Below, in pieces: positions 45,262 to 51,184 of a stretch of 54,171 nucleotides of DNA; the stretch's first letter is position 1, and every line of letters starts with the position of its first letter. The stretch spans positions 1-54,171 of the forward strand of contig NZ_JASCXX010000031.1 of the NCBI RefSeq assembly GCF_030012215.1, in the 5' to 3' direction. Origin of the DNA: Anaerobaca lacustris. Lineage in GTDB: Bacteria > Planctomycetota > Phycisphaerae > Sedimentisphaerales > Anaerobacaceae. Under the pieces are notes generated by a model, which saw nothing but the letters and a program-made list of their open reading frames with translations, was not told the DNA's origin and searched no databases. The position numbers were made by a program, and so were the translations under genes.

Positions 45262-45393
45262 TCGAGGCCGGCAAGCTCTTGACAGGGCCCGGAGAATACG
45301 GCAACCTGTGGTATCGCGTACGTGGGGTGAAAAGGCCGCCTGTCGGGCTTTTCTGGTTTTTCTGTGACTTCGGCGGAAGAGGTGAACCGACAT

Positions 45394-46023
45394 ATGCCGA
45401 TAAAGGCTGTGATATTCGATCTGGATGGAACAATCACGCAACCGTATTTCGACTTCGACGCGATTCGCGCCGAGATCGGACTGCCCAAGGACGGTGGTCC
45501 CGTTCTGGAGGCGATGGAACGGATGACGGCTCAGGAACGGCAACGCGCCCAAGAGATCCTGCACTACCACGAGGACAAAGCGCTGGCGGCATCGGAGTTG
45601 AATCCTGGCGCCAGGGAGACCCTCCTGGCCCTTCGGGCCCGAGGGATCCGCATCGGGGTGCTGACACGGAACCGAAAGCAGAACGCCCAGGCCATCGCCG
45701 ACAAGCACGACCTGCCTTTCGATGCCGTCATCGGCCGTGAAGACGGGCCGGTCAAACCCGATGCGTTCGGCGTTCGACATCTGTGCCGGCACTTCGATGT
45801 TCATCCGTCCGAAACCCTGCTCGTCGGCGACTACCTTTACGATCTCCAGTGCGCTCAGGCCGCCGGCGCCATCGGCGTATTGATCGCGAACCATCCGCAG
45901 GCAAGCCGGTTTGCGGAAGAGGCGGATTTTCAGATCACGCAACTGGACGAACTGCTTGCGATCGTCGACGAGAAGGCGCAGATCGCGAGCGACCATTTCC
46001 GAGACGGAGGGACCCATGCGTAG
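45394..46023 (+). CDS. HAD-family phosphatase
   Basis: From ATG 45394 (AGAGGTG about ten bases upstream) the product is 209 residues. Motif I is FDLDGTIT (Asp9 and Asp11), motif II is LTRNRKQN, the motif III Lys is in DGPVKPDAFG, and motif IV is LLVGDYLYDLQCA. The small helical cap resembles phosphoglycolate phosphatase / pyrophosphatase-type HADs. Its stop overlaps the next ATG by eight bases, so it is the first gene of a coupled run with the LolA-like gene. The substrate is unknown. Confidence 0.85.
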   Translation: MPIKAVIFDLDGTITQPYFDFDAIRAEIGLPKDGGPVLEAMERMTAQERQRAQEILHYHEDKALAASELNPGARETLLALRARGIRIGVLTRNRKQNAQAIADKHDLPFDAVIGREDGPVKPDAFGVRHLCRHFDVHPSETLLVGDYLYDLQCAQAAGAIGVLIANHPQASRFAEEADFQITQLDELLAIVDEKAQIASDHFRDGGTHA

Positions 46024-46819
46024 AACGATGATCGTCGCCGGCCTGCTGGCCCTGCTCGTGGCAGCGAGTTGGCGGTGCGCCCGTGCCGAGACGCCGAGTT
46101 GCTGCGGCGAGCGGACGCCGGACGCCAACTCGGTCGAGGCGGTTCTCGGCGAACTGCAGGAGCGAGCGGCCGCCCTGACGTCCTATCAGTGCAAATTGGA
46201 CTACGTCGTCCGCCAGCCCCTGCTCGAATCGCAGGCCCGCCGCAAGGGTGTCCTCTACTACGCCAAGCTCGAGAACCGGTCGTATCTGCGGATCGACTTC
46301 AACACGCTGCAGTACGACGAGGAGCCAGAACAGGCCTACCGCGAGCAGTATCTCTTCGACGGCGTGTGGCTGACCTACGTCAACTACGAGGGACGCAGCG
46401 TGCAACGCCAGCAGATGGCCGAGCCGAACGAGCCGGTCGATGCCTTCTCCCTGGTGAGCCGGCGCGTCCCGATTCTCGGATTCTCCAAAATCGAAGACCT
46501 CCAGAATCAGTTCGAGATCGAGCTGATCCCGCTGGACGAGGCCGCACAAGCCTCGTTCCGACACCTTCGCATGAACGTCCGGCCCGAGTCCATCTACCGA
46601 GACGACTACGTCACCATCGACTTCCGAATCGACAGGAAGCAGGGGCTGCCCGCCAAGGTGGTGGCCGTCACGAGCGAGCAGGACATTCACGAAATCGCGC
46701 TGATCGATGGCCGGGTCAATCAGGAGCTTGGCAGAGGCCTTTTCGACCTGGATATCCCGCGCGATTTTTCCGTGGAAACCATCCCGCTGCAAAGGAACGT
46801 CGGGCGAACGTCGGGATGA
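46016..46819 (+). CDS. LolA-like / DUF1571-type exported protein
   Basis: From ATG 46016 (GGAGG six bases upstream) the product is 267 residues with a signal peptide (MIVAGLLALLVAASW). The body shows the half-barrel pattern of LolA/LppX-like outer-membrane carrier proteins (ALTSYQCKLDYVVRQPL, KGVLYYAKLENRSYLRIDF, EQYLFDGVWLTYVNYEGRSV). The DFRIDRKQGLPAKVVAV and LFDLDIPRDFSVE strands fit as well. It probably binds lipid or a hydrophobic ligand in the periplasm. It overlaps the HAD gene and precedes the HPr-like gene by 49 bp. Confidence 0.75.
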   Translation: MRRTMIVAGLLALLVAASWRCARAETPSCCGERTPDANSVEAVLGELQERAAALTSYQCKLDYVVRQPLLESQARRKGVLYYAKLENRSYLRIDFNTLQYDEEPEQAYREQYLFDGVWLTYVNYEGRSVQRQQMAEPNEPVDAFSLVSRRVPILGFSKIEDLQNQFEIELIPLDEAAQASFRHLRMNVRPESIYRDDYVTIDFRIDRKQGLPAKVVAVTSEQDIHEIALIDGRVNQELGRGLFDLDIPRDFSVETIPLQRNVGRTSG

Positions 46820-46868: not shown

Positions 46869-48422
46869 ATGAGCGCAACGCTGGTTGACGAACGAGAATT
46901 CCTGGCGATGATGCAGGATCGCATGCAGGAGATGTTGGGCCTGTTGCAGCACCTGTCGAAGTGTGAGTCGTCAACAGCCGCACTGACGCGTCCTCTCCTG
47001 GGCAACCTGCTGTCTCAGGCCGTTCAGATCGAGGAGGTCCTGGACTCCTACGACGCGGCCAAGAACCGCAAATGGTGCCACGTCCGATCCCTCACCGCCG
47101 CCGCCAAGACATTCGCCGACGCCAGCTATGAACTGCTGCACGTCCGCCACCGCCTGCCCAACTACAGGCTTCTGCCCGTGCAGCGGGACTTCATCACCGC
47201 GACGAACGACGCCCTGGCCCTCATCGGGCACGTCCTCGTCAACGTCGCCAGAGAGATGGTGGCCGAGACCAACGCCCTGGGACTGGTCATCGAGGAAAGG
47301 GCCGACATCCCCGCCCGATACACCGAACCGAACCTCAAGGGACACCTGCCCCACGATTGCGGCACGCGCCTGGCGGCAGCGGGGGCCGACATGGTGGCCG
47401 AGACGGTCACCACGCTGGCCACGGAGTTTCTGAACCTGGCCTCCGGCAGCGAGGACGTGCGGGCGGCCAGTCGAGCCAAGCCGGAGGATTACGAGTTGTG
47501 TCTGGCCGCGTCCCTGCGAGAGGAGTCCCTGCGCCGCCTGGAATTGCGATTCCACAACCTCCAGTCGCAGTACGACACCTATGTGTCGGGCACCAAAGTC
47601 GAGAGCCAGGACACCGACCTCCCTGTCCTGCGCGGCCAGGCCAGCGTGGTCTTCCATCTGCTCAAGATCGCCACGCTGTTCGCCCACTTCTACGAGCGCC
47701 ACGTCAACCGGCAACCCTCGCCGGCCGGCGGCCGCAGCACACCGGTGGTCGAGAGGCACGAGTTGCTCGATTCCCTGATGAAATATGCCGTCACGTTCAT
47801 CGACCAGTACATCGGCTGTGCGGTCAGTCTGTGCCAGGACATGCTGAAGCGATATGCCGAGGTGGGACAGGTTGAGGTCGCCATCCCCCGATATCGGGGT
47901 TTCCATGTCCGGCCTTCGACGCTGGTCTCCAAGCTGGTCCTGCACTACGGTAGCCGTGTGCAGATGCGTCTGGGCGACGAGACGTACGACGCCGGGTCCT
48001 CGCTCGATCTGTTCCGCGCCAACGAGAAGATCAACGCCGAGAAACGCCGGTGGCTGGCCCTTGAAATCGTTCGGCTCGACCTCGTGTCCGAGAAGTCCGA
48101 ACCGACCGACATTGTCGCGGTCGTCCGCAACCTCGTGCTGACGTTGGCCGCCAAAGGCAAGCTGATCCTCTATGAACAGCCGCTCCAATTGCCCGACCGC
48201 CTGTGTCCGACGGACGGCACGGTCCTCGAGAAAGTCACCAGCGAGATGGGCCGCTTGCTGGCGATGGGCAAGATCGACATCGGCACGGACATCACCGCAA
48301 CGTTCGTCGGGGATAAGCGGGTCCTGGAAGACATCCGCCTGCTGGCTCAGCACGGCTACGGAGAGGACAGCTTCGGCAACAACGTCGCCCTGCCGGAGAA
48401 GCTCGCCTATCTGAGGTCGTGA
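46869..48422 (+). CDS. Large protein with embedded HPr-like phosphocarrier domain
   Basis: The product is 517 residues from ATG 46869; the frame is open upstream, but that part overlaps the LolA-like gene and has no start signal. The first ~330 residues are mostly helical with no family I recognise (MLGLLQHLSKCESSTAALTR, HVLVNVAREMVAETNALG, QPSPAGGRSTPVVERHEL). From about 335 an HPr-like fold appears: VAIPRYRGFHVRPSTLVSKL, with His346 at the place of the phosphorylated His of HPr (GLHARPA). LHYGSRVQMRLGDETYDAGS and SLDLFRANEKI follow. A further ~110 residues of unknown type end the protein. No conserved Ser46-like site is evident. It may be a sensor or carrier in a phosphorelay. Confidence 0.7.
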   Translation: MSATLVDEREFLAMMQDRMQEMLGLLQHLSKCESSTAALTRPLLGNLLSQAVQIEEVLDSYDAAKNRKWCHVRSLTAAAKTFADASYELLHVRHRLPNYRLLPVQRDFITATNDALALIGHVLVNVAREMVAETNALGLVIEERADIPARYTEPNLKGHLPHDCGTRLAAAGADMVAETVTTLATEFLNLASGSEDVRAASRAKPEDYELCLAASLREESLRRLELRFHNLQSQYDTYVSGTKVESQDTDLPVLRGQASVVFHLLKIATLFAHFYERHVNRQPSPAGGRSTPVVERHELLDSLMKYAVTFIDQYIGCAVSLCQDMLKRYAEVGQVEVAIPRYRGFHVRPSTLVSKLVLHYGSRVQMRLGDETYDAGSSLDLFRANEKINAEKRRWLALEIVRLDLVSEKSEPTDIVAVVRNLVLTLAAKGKLILYEQPLQLPDRLCPTDGTVLEKVTSEMGRLLAMGKIDIGTDITATFVGDKRVLEDIRLLAQHGYGEDSFGNNVALPEKLAYLRS

Positions 48423-49393: not shown

Positions 49394-49527
49394 GCGCGTC
49401 GCAACGTCCCGACGGGGAAGCCACTGCAAATATCTGTCTCGAAGAAGCTTACGACTGACACGTCGTCCACCGGGGGTGGCCTGTGACGACGTATCGGGTT
49501 GTTGCTCCCTCCATATCGAGGTCCACG

Positions 49528-50007
49528 ATGCCGCCGTCTCTACTGTTCGATCTGTCTGAACTCGATCTCAGCAGTCAGCCGGTCTTCGACAAGGAGACCG
49601 TCTGCCGAGTCAATCCCCAGCAGTACGAGATGCAGCACCTCGACGGCATCCTGTGGTACGACAAGGACAAGGCCTGCATCCTGGGCTTCAAGGACGTAAC
49701 GCCGAACGAATTCTGGGTCCGTGGCCACATTCCTGGACGGCCTCTGATGCCCGGTGTCATCCAGATCGAGGCCGCCGCCCAACTGCTGAGCTTCTTCGTC
49801 AAGCAGATCTACCAGGAGGAGGGCTTCGTAGGGTTCGGCGGGATTGACCGCGCCAAGTTCCGCGCAACCATCGAGCCGGGATGCCGGCTCTACCTGCTCG
49901 GTCACATTACCTCCGCCCGCCCGGGGCGAAAGTACGTCTGCGACGTGCAGGGAGTGGTCAAAGACACCCTCGCCTTCGAAGCCACCATCTCCGGCCTGAA
50001 AGTCTAA
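49528..50007 (+). CDS. FabZ/FabA-like 3-hydroxyacyl-ACP dehydratase family protein
   Basis: From ATG 49528 (GAGGT six bases upstream) the product is 159 residues; a GTG at 49483 is an alternative. The hot-dog-fold active-site region is WVRGHIPGRPLMPGVIQIEAAAQL: the catalytic His and the PxxPG turn match FabZ (HFPGxPxxPG). The partner acidic residue is the Glu of IQIEAAAQ. FVGFGGIDRAKFRATIEPGCRL and LLGHITSARPGRKYVC complete the hot-dog strands. It most likely dehydrates a 3-hydroxyacyl thioester, but a specialised lipid or polyketide role cannot be excluded because the N-terminus is longer than in FabZ. Confidence 0.85.
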   Translation: MPPSLLFDLSELDLSSQPVFDKETVCRVNPQQYEMQHLDGILWYDKDKACILGFKDVTPNEFWVRGHIPGRPLMPGVIQIEAAAQLLSFFVKQIYQEEGFVGFGGIDRAKFRATIEPGCRLYLLGHITSARPGRKYVCDVQGVVKDTLAFEATISGLKV

Positions 50008-50416: not shown

Positions 50417-51184
50417 TCAGTAGCGCACGCGGTACCAGAGCAGGCCGATCCATTCGTGCAGCGCGCCGGTGGACTGGACGAACGCATCCACGGTGGGCCG
50501 CAGGTTCTTGGCGTGCCAGGGGTCGGGATCGTACTGATAGTGGACGGGGACCGGCACGACCGTATCGTCGGGGAAGTGTGCGGCGAAGGTCCGCACCGAA
50601 CGCAGCGCATGCGTCGCTGATGTCACGATCCCGATGCGCCGATTCGGCGCCGCCGGCAGCAATTCCGCCAGGCCGCTGGCGTTCTGTTGTGTGGTTGCCG
50701 ACGTTGTCTCGGTGAGGATCTTCTCGGCCGGGACACCCATCTGCACGGCCATGGCCTTCATGATCTCCGCTTCCCTTTCCTTGCCCTCTCGAATCTCGCC
50801 GCCGCAGAAGGCGATGACGTCGGCGTGGCCCTGCTGAAAGAGCCGCACGCCATGATAGAGGCGCGGATAGGACCGACCGGACAATTCCGCCTCGGTGCGG
50901 AAGCCACCGGACGGGAACCCGCCGCCGCCCAATACAACAATCACATCGAGCGTCGAGAGAACATCGGCATCGGGCATCGGAACTCGGGACTCAACGGAAT
51001 AGGTCAGCGCGTTGGCAAATGGCGGAAAGCTGAGAATCAGCAGCAGCAGTGTCGCCAACAGCACCAGGACCCAGCCGACCTTGGGTGCGGTCTTTCGTCG
51101 CGAGAATCTCAGGAGCACCAGCCCCGCAAACGAGAGCACCAGAATCCAGACAAGCGGCGTGGCAAATGACTTGATCACGAACAC
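50417..51184 (-). CDS. YdcF / ElyC-family membrane protein (DUF218)
   Basis: The 255-residue product starts at a GTG (51184) seven bases after AAGGAA. Two N-terminal membrane helices (SFATPLVWILVLSFAGLVLL, VGWVLVLLATLLLLILSFPP) precede the DUF218 domain. Its motifs are VIVVLGGGGF, ELSGRSYPRLYHGVRLFQQG, VIAFCGGEIREGKEREAEIM, TETTSATTQQNA and VTSATHALRSVRTF. Members such as ElyC and SanA affect peptidoglycan and envelope integrity. The reaction is not established. Confidence 0.88.
   Translation of the reverse strand: MFVIKSFATPLVWILVLSFAGLVLLRFSRRKTAPKVGWVLVLLATLLLLILSFPPFANALTYSVESRVPMPDADVLSTLDVIVVLGGGGFPSGGFRTEAELSGRSYPRLYHGVRLFQQGHADVIAFCGGEIREGKEREAEIMKAMAVQMGVPAEKILTETTSATTQQNASGLAELLPAAPNRRIGIVTSATHALRSVRTFAAHFPDDTVVPVPVHYQYDPDPWHAKNLRPTVDAFVQSTGALHEWIGLLWYRVRY

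Follow-up and report, generated by a model that had tools for sequence, protein, structure and literature searches.

The window (the whole 54,171-nucleotide stretch of Anaerobaca lacustris DNA that was analysed) encodes a protein in which an HPr domain, the domain that passes phosphate along the bacterial sugar- and nitrogen-sensing chain, follows a long helical N-terminus and, on the evidence of the predicted model, is genuine but interrupted, with residues ~383-475 inserted between its helix B and strand 4. The protein belongs to a conserved family of two subfamilies, apparently undescribed so far: a long form, represented in the window, in which the HPr domain is broken by an interruption of ~90 residues, and a short form, in which the domain is contiguous in the sequences read. 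HPr has been studied intensively in bacterial signalling, where it is known either as a free small carrier or as a fusion with PTS enzymes, and an HPr joined to an uncharacterised helical module, and broken up in one branch by ~90 residues next to its docking face, would constitute a new readout of PEP/PTS status in phyla whose PTS is thought to be mainly regulatory. The surprise lies in the split domain and the two-form family, rather than in the envelope setting of the gene.

The gene is located at 46869..48422 on the + strand, with its ATG at 46869 and its stop codon (48420-48422) included, in agreement with the 517-residue open reading frame of the initial annotation. It occurs as a single copy in the window's genome, and the nearest homologues align with the window protein from residue 1. 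The motif GFHVRPST occupies residues 344-351, so that His346 (codon 47904..47906, assigned from motif position and conservation) is the expected HPr phosphorylation site, equivalent to His15 of HPr. As a single sequence the window protein scores below the curated cut-offs, both for PF00381 (E 0.011, 16.2 bits, cut-off 23) and for TIGR01003 (E 4.2e-5, 23.4 bits, cut-off 47.9). At E<=1, TIGR01003 is matched by all 44 long-form family members and PF00381 by 40 of them, and a passing PF00381 match within the long-form gene is found in three of the 29 long-form genomes. Among 23 short forms, 19 pass the PF00381 cut-off, three fall below it and one (G221) gives no match. GFHVRP is present in all 44 long forms (GFHVRPST in 37, GFHVRPAT in five, GFHVRPCT and GFHVRPTV in one each); in the short forms a leucine precedes the histidine and the glycine of the motif is not retained. 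His346, Arg348 and Pro349 are invariant in 44/44 long forms, the window protein included, and in the 20/20 short forms read, and this invariance in 64/64 sequences argues that the phosphorylation site is kept by selection; together with the family-wide profile matches it shows that the weak single-sequence resemblance to HPr is not accidental. The initial annotation had proposed His346 as an HPr phosphorylation site, to be abandoned if the histidine were not conserved in orthologues; it is conserved down to 35% identity, and the proposal withstands this check. The position of Ser377 (codon 47997..47999) is occupied by serine in 32 of the 44 long forms and in all 20 short forms, and by this conservation the residue is probably the equivalent of Ser46 of HPr. 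A search for HPrK/P (PF07475) gave no match in any of the 61 relatives and was also silent in the Bacillus subtilis control, an organism that has HPrK/P, so that no argument is built on this negative.

The AlphaFold model of the window protein, built from the alignment of the 44 long forms (pLDDT 89.4, pTM 0.85), contains the complete beta-alpha-beta-beta-alpha-beta-alpha HPr fold, with a jump over the insert. The solved HPr 3lfg_B is aligned by VIA-align over 84 of its 89 residues (1.7 A, Z 11.7) with model residues 332-501, and since the matched residues amount to half of this span, ~86 residues are jumped in the alignment. In the secondary structure of the model the jump falls between helix B (from 378) and strand 4 (476-482), with helix C at 483-494. 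The first part of the fold, comprising strand 1, helix A, strands 2 and 3 and the start of helix B, is placed by profile and model at residues 332-382 (47862..48014), and the last part, strand 4 and helix C, is placed by model and alignment at residues 476-494 (48294..48350), a division that explains why sequence models detect the first half alone. Structure prediction had been suggested in the initial annotation as a check that would fail without an HPr fold; the predicted model has that fold. The accompanying claim that the other parts of the chain match nothing stands for residues 1-330, but not for residues 476-501, which complete the HPr fold. Foldseek with the full model gave no match to the PDB at E<=0.001, and its HPr matches are weak, at E 0.38 and above (9s8b_D 0.38, 50 columns). 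The VIA-align candidates were drawn from the Foldseek list, and their top row is a designed helical bundle (Z 12.3, residues 172-331), after which numerous HPr entries are grouped.

Profile comparisons link the two separated parts. Against a reference profile of 10 checked stand-alone HPr sequences, the joined long-form HPr parts give 96.3% in hhalign over 50 columns, all in the first part, and the short-form HPr gives 97.4% over 68 columns. Compared with the unbroken short-form HPr, the joined long-form parts reach 99.2% over 76 columns spanning the joint, and a comparison of the last 48 long-form residues with the C-terminus of the short form gives 97.2%. The part of the long form past residue 382 is tied to HPr through structure and the short form, without a direct sequence match to ordinary HPr. 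The chain ends in a conserved tail at residues 495-517 (48351..48419; GYGED..GNN..LP..L.YLR), of which the short form has a shortened version; as the loci L015 and L016 end at contig ends, the conservation counts of the tail are lowered.

Of 61 genomes searched, 29 (among them that of the window) contain a match to the window protein at E<=1e-3; the matches are mostly near full length, and that in G018 is partial. Of the 23 loci obtained in a scan of genome contigs, 13 belong to Planctomycetota and 10 to Spirochaetota, the latter encoding members with 36-39% identity. Full-length members are present in only three of 198 spirochaete genomes (centre genome included), indicating that the family is rare there, and three further matches are weak and restricted to the HPr stretch. 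The profile of the 44 long forms was also searched in 292 planctomycete genomes of at least 85% completeness, of which 94 matched at E<=1e-3: 10 with a long form, 57 with a short form (a hand count from the match table, being the 94 less the 10 long and 27 weak matches) and 27 with weak matches confined to the HPr stretch. The long and short forms occur together in no genome of this search. The 57 short-form matches have best E values below 1e-20, end at profile position 371-388 and lie in frames of mostly 440-550 codons; in six of these genomes a separate match to the C-terminal end (472-513) appears in the same list. The best-scoring 20 of the 57 were read (the L083 row being without most of its N-terminus) and combine the long form's helical N-terminus with an unbroken HPr of the L-H-x-R-P type, 14 of them giving a separate C-terminal match. 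The 44-sequence alignment omits L040 (broken frame), L029 (partial) and L024, L030-L033 and L038 (copies or near-copies), and the second alignment omits L044, L046, L083, L003 and L027; several of the 44 aligned rows and the 36 long loci come from one genus, and they are not independent. At L040:6001-7469 a long-form gene is broken over two frames in one metagenome-assembled genome, possibly through sequencing error.

The insert proper, at residues 383-475 (48015..48293), is delimited by model and alignment and comprises a long helix B, a NEKINAxKRR motif and a small alpha/beta segment that are missing from the short forms read. In a tree constructed without the insert, the 20 short and 44 long forms are separated by one branch (100/100), and the 10 spirochaete sequences form one side of a branch (99/98), L052 being a long branch. 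Because short and long forms fall on either side of a single branch, the insert would most simply have been gained or lost once in this sample, in either direction as the tree is unrooted. The insert, together with the first part of its helix, has invariant residues of its own (N385, E386, N389, K392, R393, L426, Y435, G467 and D470), and its conservation score of 0.55 is close to those of the helical parts (0.53 and 0.59), the HPr parts scoring 0.74. Conservation on a par with the helical part indicates that the insert is functional and not drifting. Helix B neighbours the face by which HPr docks EI and EIIA, and an insert that starts beside this face could change such docking.

The helical N-terminus consists of two bundles, delimited by AlphaFold (pLDDT 89.4 and 92.8) and conservation. 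The first, all-helical bundle spans residues 8-150 (46890..47318; helices 8-31, 41-60, 70-98 and 108-136) and the second residues 173-330 (47385..47858; helices 173-193, 218-238, 250-279 and 296-329). A separate model of residues 1-330, derived from 59 long and short sequences, has a pLDDT of 92.8 and a pTM of 0.92. N66 and H91 in the first bundle are common to both forms, and the second bundle holds a conserved polar set (E218, R222, H229, S233, Y235, D236, T237, E245, R255, S259, H263, H273, R277 and H278), whose helical spacing along 218-238 and 250-279 suggests a polar, His/Arg-rich pocket. Residues kept at a level of at least 90% in both forms also include H346, R348, P349, F479, G481, D482 and D488. 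Sequence and fold searches recovered no recognised relative of residues 1-330: the best solved relative by sequence was a designed bundle (E 0.27), Foldseek with the N-terminal model returned nothing below E 0.1, and VIA-align returned mixed helical bundles led by designed proteins, with Z up to 10.8 over about 167-330. CheA P1 (1i5n, Z 7.5) is among these unspecific bundle matches, and the lists scarcely cover residues 1-166. An internal duplication relating the two bundles was rejected (hhalign 0.4%). CHAD domains are all-helical four-helix bundles with conserved histidines and arginines, and the CHAD structure 6qva gives a weak Foldseek match (E 0.38) and a VIA-align match to one bundle only (Z 8.8, 4.8 A, 137 residues), a Z value in the range of any helical bundle. 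A CHAD relationship at the level of sequence was rejected by profile comparison with 12 CHAD proteins from the window's genome and relatives (hhalign 0.3%) and by the lack of a Pfam match. A CHAD-domain protein is encoded in the window's own genome (G000:C2:158026-158730) and served as a negative comparison. The N-terminus was never seen alone in the search of 292 genomes, where every strong match ran into the HPr domain.

The family resembles ordinary HPr/NPr proteins (PF00381, TIGR01003) in its fold, in the equivalents of His15, Arg17 and Pro18 and usually of Ser46, and in the presence of an EI in the genome. Ordinary HPr/NPr is, however, a free and uninterrupted carrier of ~85 residues, whereas the HPr of the window protein sits behind 330 helical residues and, in the long form, has ~90 residues intervening between helix B and strand 4. 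In E. coli, HPr binds the helical protein Rsd, and the pair acts in regulation. HPr works there too with a helical protein (4xwj), but the two E. coli partners are separate proteins, while those of the window family are fused. In multiphosphoryl transfer proteins such as FPr/FruB and DhaM, as in the window protein, HPr is one domain of a longer chain, and the fusions described in PMC2405797 join HPr to EIIA and/or EI domains. The Pfam matches listed at E<=1 for the 44 members include neither an EIIA nor an EI domain. The literature searched on HPr in combination with planctomycetes, spirochaetes, sigma factor/ParB and helical domains, with most subscription papers and bioRxiv outside its scope, shows no description of the family in its listings; homologues of PTS-Ntr in Planctomycetales and Spirochaetales are noted in a 2026 review (PMC13104625).

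The initial annotation saw no PTS enzyme, which holds for HPr and EI in the window, where searches of its contig with HPr (PF00381) and EI (PF05524) gave no match at E<=0.001, but not for the genome. There, contig C13 encodes EIIA-2 (PF00359), HPr and EI in a row, and contig C21 encodes a second EI with an N-terminal GAF domain (L060:7919-10180, 754 residues as scanned). In the relatives set, EI was found in every long-form genome but G018 (28 of 29), and stand-alone HPr is likewise present in 28 of these 29. As EI is present in 58 of the 61 relatives, family member or not, its presence hardly discriminates. A second set, made up of 23 of the 57 short-form genomes and two long-form genomes, has EI in 23 of its 25 members, and all five spirochaete genomes tested have one too. 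In G083 and G093, EI is present and the short form is the only HPr found; in the short-form genomes G181 and G095 (assembly completeness 90% and 93%), no EI was found and no HPr besides the short form. Frames of 834-856 codons with HPr and EI N-terminal domains occur in G026:C38, G037:C19 and G045:C171, indicating HPr-EI fusions in a few relatives.

The window protein is read here as a regulator of the PTS-phosphorelay type, in which phosphorylation of His346 by Enzyme I would switch the helical module, a proposal on which we place even weight for and against. His346 would receive its phosphate, supplied ultimately by PEP, from one of the cell's own Enzymes I, either the EI beside HPr and EIIA-2 or the GAF-EI; whether it is phosphorylated would alter the helical module, through its binding partner or the opening of the conserved polar pocket, and the protein would report carbon/nitrogen (PEP) status to a target other than an envelope lipid carrier. 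The invariant His/Arg/Pro, the intact HPr fold and the EI in nearly all genomes point to phosphorylation of His346 as the most likely biochemical event, and a change in the binding of the helical module would be its most likely effect. A bolder proposition, which we consider doubtful, is that of a new class of PTS output, in which the HPr would be the fixed receiver of a sensor, the His/Arg/Asp pocket would take a ligand or the His346 phosphoryl group and the insert would re-specify docking of Enzyme I or a partner. The protein may instead be a genuine relay link, a ligand-gated phosphocarrier equivalent to NPr with a built-in sensor, in which the helical module would gate transfer from GAF-EI to an EIIA-Ntr-like protein. 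GAF-EI, NPr and EIIA-Ntr together make up the PTS-Ntr scheme as given in the review (PMC13104625), an EIIA-type gene lies near the long form at the spirochaete locus L052, and the long form tends to occur with a larger second EI (frames of 705-805 codons): across the 61 genomes 16 have both, four the EI only, 13 the long form only and 28 neither (Fisher p 0.0008; p 0.033 in the window's family with the window's genus counted once). The association is suggestive only, since shared descent and genome size confound it; family f7 has four long-form genomes without the second EI, and its sole genome with that EI is without the long form. With a stand-alone HPr present anyway in nearly all long-form genomes and the GAF domain established in the window's genome only, a relay link appears rather unlikely. 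Unlikely to a slightly greater degree is an HPr domain that is no longer phosphorylated and has kept a docking or structural role only, as might be expected from the ~90-residue insert that takes the place of the usual loop between helix B and strand 4 in the long form and from the single-sequence HPr scores below the curated cut-offs; the invariance of His, Arg and Pro in the long forms and in the more distant short forms is, however, difficult to account for unless the histidine is used.

The gene neighbourhood bears on two further readings, and was surveyed by tblastn over 36 long-form and 20 short-form loci, all 56 of which were anchored, with short upstream flanks at L044 (~0.5 kb), L048 (~1 kb), L052 (~1.8 kb) and L045 (~2.3 kb). 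In the window, a LysR gene, a HAD-superfamily hydrolase gene (45364..46023, +; PF00702, 78.5 bits, confirming the HAD gene of the initial annotation), the gene labelled 'LolA-like' by the earlier reader (46016..46819, +; overlapping the HAD gene by eight bases) and, after 49 bases, the helical-HPr gene follow one another on the same strand, and the initial annotation suggested that phosphorylation state may be coupled to the traffic of envelope lipids by way of the neighbouring 'LolA-like' gene. The tight spacing of the HAD, 'LolA-like' and HPr genes and their retention at 11 of the 36 long-form loci favour this coupling, as do a FabZ-like dehydratase gene (49483-50007) and an oppositely oriented DUF218/ElyC-like gene (50417-51184, scoring under its NCBIfam cut-off), which lie downstream in the window and add to the envelope flavour of the gene run. 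The LysR-HAD-'LolA-like' trio is, however, found only at those 11 long-form loci, from the window's relatives, with no match to any of the three genes at the other 25 (L044, with too little upstream DNA, cannot be judged) or at any of the 20 short-form loci. The 'LolA-like' product, which has by eye a signal-peptide-like N-terminus, matches no Pfam or NCBIfam model, and the label found no support there. An envelope link as a general feature of the family was rejected by this census, and we regard the coupling as highly improbable.

Of the 20 short-form loci, where families were named from the single locus L104, 19 have an upstream sigma-70 gene encoded on the strand opposite to the short form, 17 of them within 0.8 kb; parB (19/20), pyrF (17), hemW (16), bshC-like (15), metallophosphoesterase (15) and peptidyl-prolyl isomerase (10) genes are also found there. 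The sigma gene, RpoS/RpoD-like at the locus on which it was named, would fit, by analogy with E. coli Rsd and its solved complex with HPr (4xwj), an anti-sigma-like or sigma-binding regulator whose helical module binds sigma-70 and whose HPr domain controls release. The same block, however, also holds parB, hemW, pyrF and bshC-like genes and so may represent general synteny, and 35 of the 36 long-form loci give no match to the sigma gene. The N-terminal profile gives no match to Rsd from E. coli, the one Rsd sequence compared (hhalign 0.5%), and the Pfam list of the 44 members at E<=1 contains no Rsd family; such a regulator seems quite improbable. For the preferred PTS-phosphorelay-type regulator, the short-form neighbours point to sigma-70 or chromosome-partition functions as leads, while the long-form neighbours do not, and the sigma factor and parB beside the short form are a direct place to seek the output. 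No PTS genes were noticed on inspection beside long or short forms, with the exception, in a spirochaete, of an EIIA-2 type gene that lies upstream of the long-form gene and is encoded on the other strand (L052:860-1312, -). PADLOC, applied to the window protein and a single short form, gave no defence-system match at E<=0.1. The bshC-like, pyrF, hemW, sigma-70, short-form, metallophosphoesterase and parB genes constitute a stable planctomycete block across L103-L122.
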